From the NCBI GenBank assembly GCA_946480065.1, contig CAMLJA010000106.1:1-6742 (forward strand): a stretch of 6,742 nucleotides of DNA, read 5' to 3'. Below, piece after piece: positions 1-6,515 of this stretch (position 1 is the first letter of the stretch; each line of letters begins with the position of its first letter). The stretch is from an uncultured Thermomonas sp. (lineage in GTDB: Bacteria > Pseudomonadota > Gammaproteobacteria > Xanthomonadales > Xanthomonadaceae). The position numbers were made by a program, and so were the translations under genes. The notes under the pieces are model-generated. The model had not been told where the DNA came from, searched no databases, and worked only from the letters and a program-made list of their open reading frames with translations.

Positions 1-136
1 CCGAGAGCACGTGGAACACCGTCAGCGTGGTCATGCTGGCGCCGATGCCCAGCGCGATCGCGAGCACCATCAGCGCGGTCAGCGCGCGGTTGCGCCGGAA
101 ACTGCGCAGGGCGAGGTTGAGGTAATAGCGGAACAT
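1..136 (-). CDS. ABC transporter permease, FtsX/MacB type (partial, N-terminus only)
   Basis: Only the first 45 codons lie in the window; the gene continues past the left edge. The protein begins MFRYYLNLALRSFRRN, a short basic cytoplasmic start, followed by a hydrophobic stretch at about residues 18-45 (ALTALMVLAIALGIGASM) that forms the first membrane helix. This pattern, with the 'LAIALGIGAS' type helix, is typical of MacB/FtsX-family permeases, which have four helices and a large periplasmic domain between the first two. The start is the ATG at 134-136, preceded by a good ribosome binding site (GGGAGAG). It lies 13 bases after the stop of the ATPase gene, so the two are surely co-transcribed. 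It should be the inner-membrane partner of that ATPase. A second permease gene may follow outside the window, but this cannot be seen. Confidence 0.88.
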   Translation of the reverse strand, partial: MFRYYLNLALRSFRRNRALTALMVLAIALGIGASMTTLTVFHVLS

Positions 137-149
137 GGCGCTCTCCCGG

Positions 150-878
150 TCAGGCGCTGGCGAGCGCGGCTTCGTCCCTCGCGCGCGCGGCCCGCGCCAG
201 CCCGGACTCGGCCGACAGGTCGGTGGCCATGCCGTCGACGATGTGCACGTTGCGCTGCGCGCGCGCGGCCAGCTCGGGGTCGTGGGTCACCATCACGATG
301 GTGGTGCCCTGCTGGTTGATGTCCTCCAGCAGCTCCATCACGCTGCGCGCCATCTGCGAGTCCAGGTTGCCGGTGGGTTCGTCCGCCAGCAGCAGGCGCG
401 GGCTGCCGGCGAGCGCGCGGGCGATCGCGGCGCGCTGCTGCTGGCCGCCGGAGAGTTCCGCCGGGTAGTGCTTCATGCGCGAGCCCAGGCCCACCAGGCC
501 CAGCGCGTCCTCGATCCGCAGCCTGCGTTCGGACGCCGGCATCCCGCGGTAGCGCAGCGGCACGTCGCAGTTGTCGAACAGGTTGAGGTCCGGGATCAGG
601 TTGAAGCTCTGGAAGATGAAGCCGATCTTCTCGTTGCGCAGGCGCGAGCGGGCGTTGTCGTCCAGCCCCTTCACGTCGACCCCGTCCAGCAGGTACTCGC
701 CGCCGGTGAAGCTCTCCAGCAGGCCGGCGATGTTGAGGAAGGTGGTCTTGCCGGAGCCGGACGGGCCGGTGACGGCGACGAACTCGCCCTCGCGGACGTG
801 CAGGTCCAGCGAGCGCAGCGCGTGGGTTTCGACCAGTTCGGTGCGGTAGACCTTGTTGACTTGGCGCATGTCGAGCAT
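150..878 (-). CDS. ABC transporter ATP-binding protein, MacB/LolD family
   Basis: This 242-residue protein is a stand-alone nucleotide-binding subunit that hydrolyses ATP at the inner membrane to drive a FtsX-type permease. All motifs are present and intact: Walker A GPSGSGKTT at 38-46, Q-loop Gln90 in 'GFIFQSFNLIP', signature LSGGQ at 142-146, Walker B LLLADE at 162-167, D-loop NLDS at 171-174, and switch His199 in 'MVTHD'. The 'QSFNLIP' and 'ADEPTGNLDS' wording is characteristic of the MacB/LolD/FtsE branch rather than of importers. The length is normal for a free-standing domain, with a short Ala/Arg-rich tail after about 222. The ATG at 876-878 is preceded by AAGGAA eight bases upstream; Met4 is a weaker alternative. 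The gene begins 16 bases after the adaptor gene stops and ends 13 bases before the permease gene starts, so the three form one operon. The exported substrate is unknown. LolD of lipoprotein release is unlikely because a membrane fusion protein is encoded alongside. Confidence 0.95.
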   Translation of the reverse strand: MLDMRQVNKVYRTELVETHALRSLDLHVREGEFVAVTGPSGSGKTTFLNIAGLLESFTGGEYLLDGVDVKGLDDNARSRLRNEKIGFIFQSFNLIPDLNLFDNCDVPLRYRGMPASERRLRIEDALGLVGLGSRMKHYPAELSGGQQQRAAIARALAGSPRLLLADEPTGNLDSQMARSVMELLEDINQQGTTIVMVTHDPELAARAQRNVHIVDGMATDLSAESGLARAARARDEAALASA

Positions 879-894
879 GGCGGGGGTTCCTTGG

Positions 895-2184
895 TTAGTT
901 TCCGGAGATGCGGACGCGGTCCGCGCTGTCGAACTGGTCGGTGCCCGAGACCACGATGCGGTCGCCGGCCTTCAGGCCCGAGACGATTTCCACCGCGTCC
1001 AGGCTGGCGGCGCCGGTCTGGATCGGCTTGCGCACGGCGCTGGCGCCGTCCACCACGTAGGCGAAGCGGCCGCCGTCCTGCTCCACGAACGGCCCGCGCT
1101 CCACCATCAGCACGTCGCGGCGGGTGTCCATGACGATCCGCACCGACAGCCGCTGGTTCTGGCGCAGGCCGGGCGGCTGGCGGCCCTGGGCGAAGCGCAC
1201 GCGCGCGGTCACCTCGCCGTTCACCACCTCGGGCGAGACCGCGGCGATCTCGGCCGGATACACCGCGCCGCTGCTGGACACCTGCGCCGGCATGCCGATC
1301 CCCAGGTCGCGGGCGAAGCTCTCCGGCACCTTGATCTCGACTTCGAAGCGGGTGAGGTCCACCACCGTCAGCACCGGCCCGTTGGCGACCACGTTGGTGC
1401 CCTGCGGCACCTGCACCTGGCCGACCTGGCCGTCGAACGGGGCGCGGATGGTCAGCGCATCGACTTGGCGGCGCTGCTCGGCCACCACCGCGCGCTGGCG
1501 CTCGGCCAGCAGCTGCTTGTTGCGCGCGTCCAGGCCGGCACCCGCGCTCTGCAGCTGGAAGTCCTTGCGTGCGGCGGCCAGGCCGATCTCCGCCTTCTTC
1601 ATGTCGTCCTGGGCGCGGGCCAGGTCGTTCTGCGGCACCGCGCCGCCGTCGTAGGCGCGCTGGTAGCGCTCCAGGTCGCGCATGGCGGCGGTGCGCTCCA
1701 CCATCGCCTGGTCCAGCGCGCGGCGCGCGTTGGCGCGCATGATCTGGGCGTCCAGCAGCGCGCGGCTGGCCTCGGCCTCCATCCCGGCCAGGGTGGATTC
1801 CTCCTGCACCAGCTTGCTGCGCAGCTCCGGGCTGTCGATCACCGCCAGCGACTGGCCCTTCGCCACCTTGTCGCCGGCCACCACCTGCAGCGACACCGTG
1901 CCCGGCGCGATCGCGTACAGGGTGGGGCTGTTGGCGGCGATCACCCGGCCTTCCGCGCTGAGGTCGCGCACCAGGTCGCCGCGGCGGACCTCGGCGAAGC
2001 GCAGGCGCGCGGCGTCGTAGGAGCGTGCGCCGCCGCCCCACGAAGTGGCCACCCAGGCCACCGCGGCCAGCAGCGCAAGCCCGCCGGCGCCGGCCACCAG
2101 CCAGCGGCGGCGGGCGGGGCCCGGCGCGTGGGCCAGGACCTGGTCCTGGCCGGAGGTATCGCGGATGCGCTTGCGGTCGTCCAT
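895..2184 (-). CDS. Periplasmic adaptor (membrane fusion protein), MacA/HlyD family
   Basis: This adaptor links an inner-membrane transporter to an outer-membrane channel across the periplasm. From Met at 2182-2184 it has 429 residues: a basic N-terminus, one membrane anchor at about 28-47 (WLVAGAGGLALLAAVAWV), a first lipoyl half around 78-120 with 'GDKVAKGQSLAVIDSPELRSK', a long Ala/Gln/Arg-rich coiled-coil hairpin at about 121-239, a second lipoyl half around 240-275 with 'LTIRAPFDGQVGQV', then a beta-barrel and a membrane-proximal domain ending 'GLKAGDRIVVSGTDQF'. In-frame ATGs also occur at 2209-2211 and 2257-2259. The shorter start is preferred because the predicted sigma-54 transcript begins near 2212, because AAGGA lies upstream of it (a rather long 13-base gap), and because recalled xanthomonad homologues begin near 'IRDTSGQD'. 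The 2209 ATG, which would be almost leaderless, remains possible. It is the first gene of the adaptor-ATPase-permease operon. No outer-membrane partner is seen, so a shared TolC-type channel is inferred. Confidence 0.9.
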   Translation of the reverse strand: MDDRKRIRDTSGQDQVLAHAPGPARRRWLVAGAGGLALLAAVAWVATSWGGGARSYDAARLRFAEVRRGDLVRDLSAEGRVIAANSPTLYAIAPGTVSLQVVAGDKVAKGQSLAVIDSPELRSKLVQEESTLAGMEAEASRALLDAQIMRANARRALDQAMVERTAAMRDLERYQRAYDGGAVPQNDLARAQDDMKKAEIGLAAARKDFQLQSAGAGLDARNKQLLAERQRAVVAEQRRQVDALTIRAPFDGQVGQVQVPQGTNVVANGPVLTVVDLTRFEVEIKVPESFARDLGIGMPAQVSSSGAVYPAEIAAVSPEVVNGEVTARVRFAQGRQPPGLRQNQRLSVRIVMDTRRDVLMVERGPFVEQDGGRFAYVVDGASAVRKPIQTGAASLDAVEIVSGLKAGDRIVVSGTDQFDSADRVRISGN

Positions 2185-2221
2185 CGGTGCGGGGCTGTCC
2201 TTCGGGGTCATGCCCTGCCTG

Positions 2222-2239
2222 TTGCAAATTGCGTGCCAA
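2222..2239 (-). promoter_or_regulatory. Sigma-54 (RpoN) promoter of the exporter operon
   Basis: Read on the minus strand, the sequence is TTGGCACG-CAAT-TTGCAA. This matches the sigma-54 consensus YTGGCACG-N4-TTGCW at every conserved position. The invariant GG of the -24 element is at 2237-2236 and the invariant GC of the -12 element at 2225-2224, with the required 10 bases between them. Transcription would start close to 2212. That rules out the ATG at 2257-2259, makes the one at 2209-2211 essentially leaderless, and gives the one at 2182-2184 a leader of about 28 bases. RpoN promoters cannot open without an ATP-driven enhancer-binding protein, and matching sites are visible upstream. The call rests on sequence match and context; no start site was measured. 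Confidence 0.85.
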
Positions 2240-2242
2240 TCG

Positions 2243-2255
2243 CAAACCATTGATT
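2243..2255 (-). promoter_or_regulatory. Probable IHF binding site
   Basis: The minus strand reads AATCAA-TGGT-TTG, which fits the IHF consensus WATCAA-N4-TTR at every defined base. It lies at about -32 to -44, between the -24 element and the upstream dyads. There IHF would bend the DNA so that an enhancer-bound activator can touch sigma-54 polymerase. The surrounding 2226-2268 is the only AT-rich stretch in an otherwise very GC-rich window. The consensus is short, so the position matters as much as the match. Confidence 0.6.
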
Positions 2256-2283
2256 TCAAATGATTAAGTGGCGGCGTCCGGCT

Positions 2284-2323
2284 GTCCGCCCGGACGCGCG
2301 GCCGTCCGTCCGGACGCCCGGCC
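2284..2323 (-). repeat. Two 20-bp tandem units with dyads: probable activator (UAS) sites
   Basis: Units 2284-2303 and 2304-2323 are identical at 18 of 20 bases. Each begins with the 12-bp dyad GTCCG-NN-CGGAC (2284-2295 with CC in the middle, 2304-2315 with TC). Being exactly 20 bp apart, about two helical turns, the dyads face the same side of the DNA. Relative to the predicted sigma-54 start they lie at about -72 to -83 and -92 to -103, within or just short of the usual range for NtrC-type activators. A further half site, GTCCG, occurs at 2276-2280. These are inferred to be enhancer sites for the operon's activator, which is not encoded in the window. The distal unit also lies where the glmS -35 region would be. 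Confidence 0.65.
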
Positions 2324-2338: not shown

Positions 2339-2344
2339 TACACT
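2339..2344 (+). promoter_or_regulatory. Candidate -10 element of glmS
   Basis: TACACT matches TATAAT at four of six positions and lies 28 bases before the glmS start codon, giving a leader of about 20 bases. The same 8-mer, TTACACTG, forms the proposed -10 of the btuB promoter on the other strand of this window. No convincing -35 is visible: the expected position, about 2315-2322, falls inside the distal tandem repeat. The call is tentative. Confidence 0.4.
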
Positions 2345-2371: not shown

Positions 2372-4204
<1,833 letters not shown>

Positions 4205-6173: not shown

Positions 6174-6284
6174 ATGGGATGGCGTGGCGATGGCGTGCGG
6201 AGGGGAAACGACGGACGCAGGCGCGGCGACGGGCGCAACGCGAGGCCGCGCGACGCCCACCGCATCGCCACCAGTCATGCTCCG

Positions 6285-6477
6285 GGCCGGTCTCCGGGCT
6301 CGCGGGCGGGACATCGCAGGATGTCCCCGCTCGACGCCTTCCCATGCGCGTGCACAGTGGCCGATGCCGAGCTTGTCTCGCTTACCGTTGCGGGGGCAGC
6401 GCCGGGCTGGAGGCGCTTGCGCGCATCGTCACCGGCTTCCCGTTTCAATCCGCCGGCGGCTGCCTGCGGATCACCTT
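6285..6477 (-). ncRNA. Cobalamin (adenosylcobalamin-type) riboswitch
   Basis: This is the ligand-binding aptamer in the btuB leader; it senses B12 compounds and lowers receptor synthesis when they are plentiful. Read on the minus strand from 6477 it carries the conserved blocks in order: GGTG near the 5' end; GAAACGGGAAGCCGGTG at 6446-6430; GCTGCCCCCGCAACGGTAAG around 6400-6381; CACTG at 6359-6355; GGGAAGGC at 6343-6336; a peripheral hairpin with an 8-bp stem (6327-6320 with 6315-6308); and the B12 box GCCCGGAGACCGGCC at 6299-6285. About 142 bases separate the aptamer from the btuB start codon, leaving room for the output region. The full set of blocks, their order and spacing, and the btuB gene behind them make this secure; exact ends are approximate. 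Confidence 0.95.
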
Positions 6478-6487
6478 GAGCGCGCGC

Positions 6488-6515
6488 AGTGTAACCCGGC
6501 GCGCGCCCAAGTCAC
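6488..6515 (-). promoter_or_regulatory. Probable sigma-70-type promoter of btuB
   Basis: On the minus strand, GTGACT (6515-6510; TTGACA at four of six) is separated by 16 bases from TACACT (6493-6488; TATAAT at four of six). Transcription would start near 6481, just before the first riboswitch block, as expected. The -35 overlaps the TGA stop codon (6514-6512) of the upstream gene, so the promoter leaves no spare sequence between the genes. Confidence 0.5.

Follow-up and report, generated by a model that had tools for sequence, protein, structure and literature searches.

Which factor switches on the ABC exporter operon that lies back to back with glmS in an uncultured Thermomonas species, and through which DNA elements does it act? 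The stretch of 6,742 nucleotides analysed here (the window) holds the beginning of this operon on its minus strand. In a preliminary description of the window a sigma-54 control array was placed in front of the first gene, at positions 2212-2323; the array proper was found to occupy about 2223-2315, inside this range.

Gene organization of the exporter operon

The first gene of the operon (895..2211, minus strand) encodes a periplasmic adaptor, a HlyD/RND-type membrane fusion protein (TIGR01730, 134.6 bits with a cut-off of 94.9). The closest database protein shows 98% identity and stems from a metagenome, and the closest named proteins are from Thermomonas (84%). The second gene (150..878, minus strand; PF00005) encodes an ABC ATPase of the MacB/LolD/FtsE class, the nearest solved sequence being 5xu1 chain A (E 1.3e-65). 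No NCBIfam equivalog among the matches listed attains its cut-off with this ATPase. The 5' part of a first permease gene, truncated by the window end, was recognized at 2..136 (minus strand) by tblastn with the permease of the related locus L036 (89% over the stretch). The full L036 permease carries MacB_PCD and FtsX domains in Pfam, which are the domains of the first permease in the relatives. On the other side of the adaptor gene, glmS (2372..4204, plus strand; TIGR01135, 856 bits over cut-off) is a divergent neighbour outside the operon. Beyond it lies a gene for a BtuB-type TonB-dependent receptor (4274 to about 6141, minus strand; TIGR01779, barely above cut-off), behind an ordinary cobalamin riboswitch (6268-6493, minus strand; 90.7 bits versus a gathering threshold of 31.5).

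The exporter had been described as MacAB-type. It has in common with MacAB-type and Spr0694/0695-like exporters (PDB 5nik, 5xu1) the adaptor, the ATPase of the MacB/LolD class and the MacB_PCD/FtsX permeases, but the ATPase and two different permeases are encoded by separate genes and a fused MacB is lacking. The MacA model reached 58.8 of 342 bits and the MacB model 210 of 966 bits on the stand-alone ATPase. MacAB proper was rejected with both models below cut-off, and what stands of the description is a MacAB-like exporter. The darobactin exporter DarCD was rejected as well, its models also scoring below cut-off.

The two-component system in related operons

For comparison the window was combined with the best 80 of 365 relatives, confirmed by an adaptor-profile scan of genome contigs, into a set of 81 loci. 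The 80 relatives were picked by similarity of the adaptor protein, not by promoter, and belong to Thermomonas, Luteimonas, Pseudoxanthomonas, Lysobacter, Vulcaniibacterium, Stenotrophomonas and uncultured kin. In the relatives the operon runs in the order adaptor, ATPase, permease, permease, response regulator, kinase; its flanking genes are a divergent glmS and, on the opposite side, a convergent glmU. Matches in the 81-locus set were obtained for the ATPase (79), the two permeases (78 and 76), glmS (73) and glmU (64). The spacing between ATPase, permease and regulator genes is enlarged by at least 1 kb in L010, L015, L024, L037, L049, L056, L074 and L079, pointing to additional permease genes or duplicates in these operons.

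The genes for a sigma-54 response regulator and kinase had been proposed to lie to the left of the window. The left edge falls inside the first permease, short of the position that these genes take in the relatives. There the proposal is borne out: an NtrC-type response regulator follows the second permease in 72 of the 81 loci and a kinase is found in 71 of them (window and best 80 of 365 relatives). In the genome of the window both genes would presumably occupy the same place. Counted from the promoter, the regulator gene begins after about 4.7 to 7.8 kb in the relatives. Among the nine loci without regulator, the sequence stops too soon in six relatives and in the window; in the other two, L056 and L074, no regulator was found in more than 11 kb downstream.

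The regulator consists of a receiver domain, a sigma-54 AAA+ domain and a Fis-type HTH domain (both of two proteins scanned). All 71 regulators longer than 400 amino acids harbour GAYTGA, GxxGxGKE, LFLDE, QDMNF and KPWxD, and thereby Walker A and B motifs and, in QDMNF, the context of the receiver aspartate. The latter signature is accompanied by DTTSG, likewise in 71/71 (e.g. L016:14887-16227). The HTH segment SRQALYRR is unchanged throughout these 71 proteins. The sigma-54 loop reads GAYTGA in each of them and GAFTGA in none; GAYTGA has been quoted for HrpS in a review (PMC8657755). In the kinase, PAS and HATPase domains were recognized, with a HisKA match slightly under the Pfam cut-off. 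Its N-terminus consists of two close hydrophobic segments in the nine kinases inspected, and the RALxG segment after this hydrophobic part starts at residue 58-68 in 66 of 70 kinases, so that a periplasmic domain would not fit in.

The predicted sigma-54 promoter and IHF site

The preliminary description claimed a consensus -24/-12 promoter on the minus strand, an IHF consensus between promoter and enhancer and two phased dyads at enhancer distance, as an ordered set hard to explain by chance, and suggested an alignment of related promoter regions for the three elements and the GG/GC pair. This alignment supports each of these claims. The promoter element TGGCACGCAATTTGCA at 2223..2238 (minus strand) fits TGGCACG-N4-TTGCA without mismatch from 2238 to 2223, and its GG (2237-2236) and GC (2225-2224) stand ten bases apart in the TGGCACG-N4-TTGCW context. 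Loose -24/-12 matches are not enriched in the window (4 versus 13.7 in shuffles), and the remaining three carry 2 or 3 mismatches. Across all 81 loci (window and best 80 of 365 relatives) the core T-G-G-C-A and T-G-C, GG/GC pair included, is invariant at the right spacing. The whole 16-base pattern is exact in 20 loci and deviates by 1 mismatch in 48, by 2 in 12 and by 3 in one, while 3,092,117 other positions in the window and 80 relatives gave 0 exact and 10 one-mismatch matches. rpoN was present over cut-off in all six relatives' genomes tested. A sigma-70 promoter for the adaptor was rejected; a search for a sigma-70-like promoter at 2150-2420 found none.

By convention, sigma-54 transcripts start 12 nt downstream of the C in the -12 GC, which sets the predicted +1 at about 2212 (minus strand). 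Counted from there, the promoter spans -26 to -11 and is preceded by an IHF consensus site AATCAATGGTTTG at 2243..2255 (minus strand; -43 to -31), an exact match to WATCAANNNNTTR. The predicted site thus sits between promoter and dyads, as expected. With at most 1 mismatch the consensus occurs in 68 of the 81 loci, nearly always 17 or 18 nt ahead of the -24 element, versus 2.3% of shuffled windows; 13 loci are at least 2 mismatches off. The site is embedded in an AT-rich island (AT fraction 0.56-0.75 from -55 to -31, versus a locus mean of 0.32), and himA scored above cut-off in all six relatives' genomes tested. Conservation is weaker in the order-wide sample introduced below, where 26 of 56 regulator-linked adaptors have the consensus with at most 1 mismatch.

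The predicted enhancer dyads

Two predicted enhancer dyads of the form GTCC-N4-GGAC precede the IHF site, a proximal one (GTCCGGGCGGAC, 2284..2295) and a distal one (GTCCGGACGGAC, 2304..2315). Compared with the fuller consensus TGTCCGNNCGGACA, the proximal dyad has 1 mismatch and the distal dyad 2. Their centres, 20 bp apart at about -77 and -97, were counted as lying at enhancer distance (about -80 to -150). Exactly two strict dyads (at most 2 mismatches each) were found in 31 of the 81 loci, at a spacing of 21 bp in 25 loci, 20 bp in 2, 22 bp in 2 and 4 bp in 2. The other 50 loci have one or no strict dyad, mostly because the spacing of the half-sites varies, and in clades without a strict pair the half-sites stand at different spacings. 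GTCC-Nx-GGAC occurs in the 81-locus set 74 times with x = 4 (versus 0.04 expected), 22 times with x = 0 and 21 times with x = 3. The half-sites themselves are present everywhere: each of the 81 loci has 3 to 8 GTCCG/CGGAC half-sites per 80 nt (mean 5.26), versus a mean of 0.21 and a maximum of 3 in 7815 control windows, an enrichment of about 25-fold.

A promoter-like string arising by chance in an AT-poor genome, next to GC-rich palindromes of other origin, would produce a similar picture at a single locus. The half-sites are indeed GC-rich, as is the genome, and short degenerate matches are common. One-mismatch -24/-12-like strings numbered 21 and 23 in two genomes, versus 12 and 19 for the reversed control. 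A single dyad with 1 mismatch allowed was found in 9 or 10 places in three of six genomes, and in all six the reversed-pattern control gave more matches, so that the single dyad is no regulon finder. However, chance leaves unexplained the fixed position and order of the elements, the invariance in 81/81 loci and the conservation in a second, more distant sample. This explanation was rejected, since promoter core, IHF site and half-sites are all conserved, and it has hardly any probability left. The strict dyad pair occurs only once in Luteimonas sp. J29 (G004), at the adaptor promoter; none was found in T. haemolytica (G002), whose own dyads deviate. The loci of 30 of the 44 -24/-12-like sites in these two genomes were examined. 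One is the G004 adaptor promoter, with 5 half-sites, and the other 29 rows, two of which are the same element, have 0 to 2.

The position of the dyads, 57-88 bp upstream of the glmS ATG, allows a second reading: sigma-54 would still act at the promoter, whereas the dyads would belong to the divergent glmS and bind a regulator, positive or negative, of amino-sugar synthesis. Most of the 81 loci have glmS next door, and of the 60 loci in which it lies nearby, 58 carry a TACACT-like -10 hexamer for this gene. Against this, the stretch between distal dyad and glmS -10 varies from 18 to 149 bp while the dyad spacing is fixed, and arrays persist where glmS is not near: 39 of 63 array-bearing adaptors in the order-wide sample lack a glmS N-terminus within 500 nt. 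Four loci (L034, L036, L046 and L055) have no glmS in 5.7-9.9 kb upstream, yet still 5 or 6 half-sites. The dyads were therefore rejected as glmS elements, a role that is very unlikely for them. In the window the -10-like hexamer TACACT is located at 2339-2344 (plus strand). The expected glmS -35 region directly adjoins the distal dyad, so that an additional effect of the regulator on glmS expression is conceivable.

Co-occurrence of array and regulator

Assignment of the dyads to the exporter promoter raises the question which protein binds them. A sample of 151 genomes from the order of G006 was used here, in which a regulator orthologue was defined by at least 55% identity (65/151 genomes) and an array by no more than 2 mismatches in the promoter plus 3 or more half-sites. 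An adaptor match was obtained in 86 of the genomes (90 matches), and 89 adaptors were examined. With a regulator orthologue within 30 kb, 55 of 56 adaptors were preceded by an array; the exception, L193, has a 3-mismatch promoter, 4 half-sites and a near-IHF match. Where the orthologue lies elsewhere in the genome, 8 of 12 adaptors have the array, and the four without it are second copies in genomes whose other copy has one. Genomes without regulator orthologue gave 0 of 21 under this strict test. One of their adaptors, L177 (G058, no regulator at 55%), is a borderline case with a weak array of 3 mismatches and 3 half-sites.

That an NtrC-type activator goes with the RpoN-driven exporter, as had been anticipated, agrees with this pattern, in which the array tracks the regulator. 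It is mainly this co-occurrence that marks dyads, promoter and regulator as parts of one system. Another enhancer-binding protein could be the activator, with the linked pair merely using the same promoter: homologues of the regulator are numerous (9 to 14 scored matches in each of the 151 genomes), and in some genomes an array-bearing adaptor lies far from the regulator. The array is nevertheless absent from all 21 adaptors in genomes without orthologue, though every one of these genomes has other regulator homologues, and the constant HTH end SRQALYRR of the linked regulator is mirrored by a half-site that is likewise unchanged. Control by such a different protein is thus considered unlikely, and the linked regulator is preferred as the activator. 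In G009 and G059 an array-bearing adaptor and the regulator orthologue share a contig but are over 1 Mb apart; judged from this arrangement, regulator and putative target are separated with the array retained.

Translation start of the adaptor

An ATG scan revealed two possible adaptor starts in the window, at 2209-2211 and 2182-2184 (both minus strand), corresponding to +2 and +29 of the predicted transcript. An in-frame ATG at +2 or +3 was found in 15 of the 81 loci; the other 66 have their in-frame adaptor ATGs further downstream, mostly at +22 to +41. In nine of the 15 loci (L003, L004, L006-L010, L012 and L014) no start other than the +2/+3 ATG occurs from the promoter up to the conserved IRDT motif, and six, the window included, have another ATG downstream. 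A phylogenetic tree of 32 of the 81 adaptors placed the window in a clade of 14 rows (support 100/99), all of which have the +2/+3 ATG; a single row outside this clade, L025, has an ATG there too. A few loci also have out-of-frame ATGs close to +1, and +1 itself is a prediction. A Shine-Dalgarno match is missing from 61 of 66 adaptor leaders, and likewise in front of the regulator gene in 64 of 72 loci, in contrast to the ATPase genes (present in 74/78) and glmS (58/73). The second ATG of the window (2184) has AAGGA 13 nt upstream.

Counted from the predicted +1, these data make a leaderless adaptor mRNA a strong prediction for the nine relatives and a tentative one for the window. For the Thermomonas clade as a whole it can be proposed, at somewhat below even odds, that adaptor translation moved onto the sigma-54 start to give a leaderless mRNA. 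In the same tentative reading the window would be an intermediate with both ATGs, ATG 2211 being new and ATG 2184 ancestral, and the nine relatives would keep only the new one. If true, the -24/-12 element fixes the start of both transcription and translation, and the clade and its relatives provide a natural series from leadered to leaderless mRNAs behind one sigma-54 promoter. In S. meliloti, leaderless starts and sigma-54 starts both exist, with no overlap stated in the accessible text (PMC3616915).

Comparison with known systems

RpoN control of a MacAB-type exporter had been regarded as unexpected in the preliminary description, a view that can be softened. A survey from 2025 reported predicted sigma-54 promoters to be enriched ahead of FtsX-like ABC permeases (COG0577, COG1136), for COG0577 in gamma-Proteobacteria, Opitutia and Bacteroidia, and described this as the first evidence for the link (PMC12316311). 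The connection is less surprising because of this report, which concerns the same permease class and the same sigma factor. It is a class-level statistical prediction from promoter matrices, and its accessible text describes no enhancer, cognate activator or xanthomonad locus. The sigma-54 link to such exporters is thus already known; the likely activator, enhancer and circuit are contributed here. A sigma-54 site was predicted before an HlyD-family efflux operon in a related family, XF2093-94 of Xylella fastidiosa (PMC3224663). This system was called an RND pump, its site scored near the cut-off, and the accessible text assigns neither enhancer nor activator to it (PMC3224663). Three NtrC-family regulators of Xanthomonas oryzae were mentioned in a review as lacking a studied function (PMC8657755, section 3). 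The accessible text of PMC7280030 and PMC4641369 holds nothing on such an operon, and a literature search by title, with most subscription journals outside its scope, returned no paper on the exporter operon or on leaderless sigma-54 mRNAs.

The two-component pair resembles NtrBC and ZraSR in the regulator, with its receiver, AAA+ sigma-54 domain and Fis-type HTH, and the kinase is similar to AtoS/ZraS. The best NCBIfam matches of the regulator were ntrC, PEP-CTERM regulator and AtoC, all far below their cut-offs. The pair differs from NtrBC/ZraSR in having GAYTGA instead of GAFTGA and in its target, an exporter operon that contains the pair itself. Bce-type modules of Firmicutes also combine an exporter with FtsX-type permease and a kinase with almost no periplasmic part, and BceA is among the solved relatives of the ATPase. 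The Bce modules, however, depend on sigma-70 and an OmpR-type regulator, whereas sigma-54 and an NtrC-type regulator are predicted here.

Proposed circuit

In sigma-54 dependent transcription, as with NtrC and ZraR, a phosphorylated regulator bound to dyads contacts the promoter over an IHF bend and opens it at the expense of ATP. By comparison with these systems and from the conservation described above, the array is very probably an enhancer-dependent sigma-54 promoter of the exporter operon, switched by the operon's own NtrC-type two-component system; the support for this circuit is comparative throughout. The histidine kinase would phosphorylate the regulator, dimers of which would occupy the phased pair of GTCC-N4-GGAC sites (about -77 and -97) and then oligomerise. 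With IHF presumably bending the AT-rich stretch around -40, the AAA+ domain would open the RNA polymerase/sigma-54 complex at the -24/-12 element, giving rise to what may be a single transcript of the operon.

With regulator and kinase encoded at its end, the operon is probably positively autoregulated and the circuit dedicated to the transporter. Positive autoregulation of the operon is likely from this gene order, with the regulator located elsewhere in some genomes. Dedication of the regulator to the exporter operon is also likely, as judged from a strict-pair scan that covered two genomes. By analogy to Bce systems, a kinase so poor in sensory parts, encoded next to FtsX-type permeases, may sense the transporter or the membrane. 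An exporter widespread in Lysobacterales can thus be linked to a likely activator, an enhancer code and a signal pathway, which makes its regulation directly testable.
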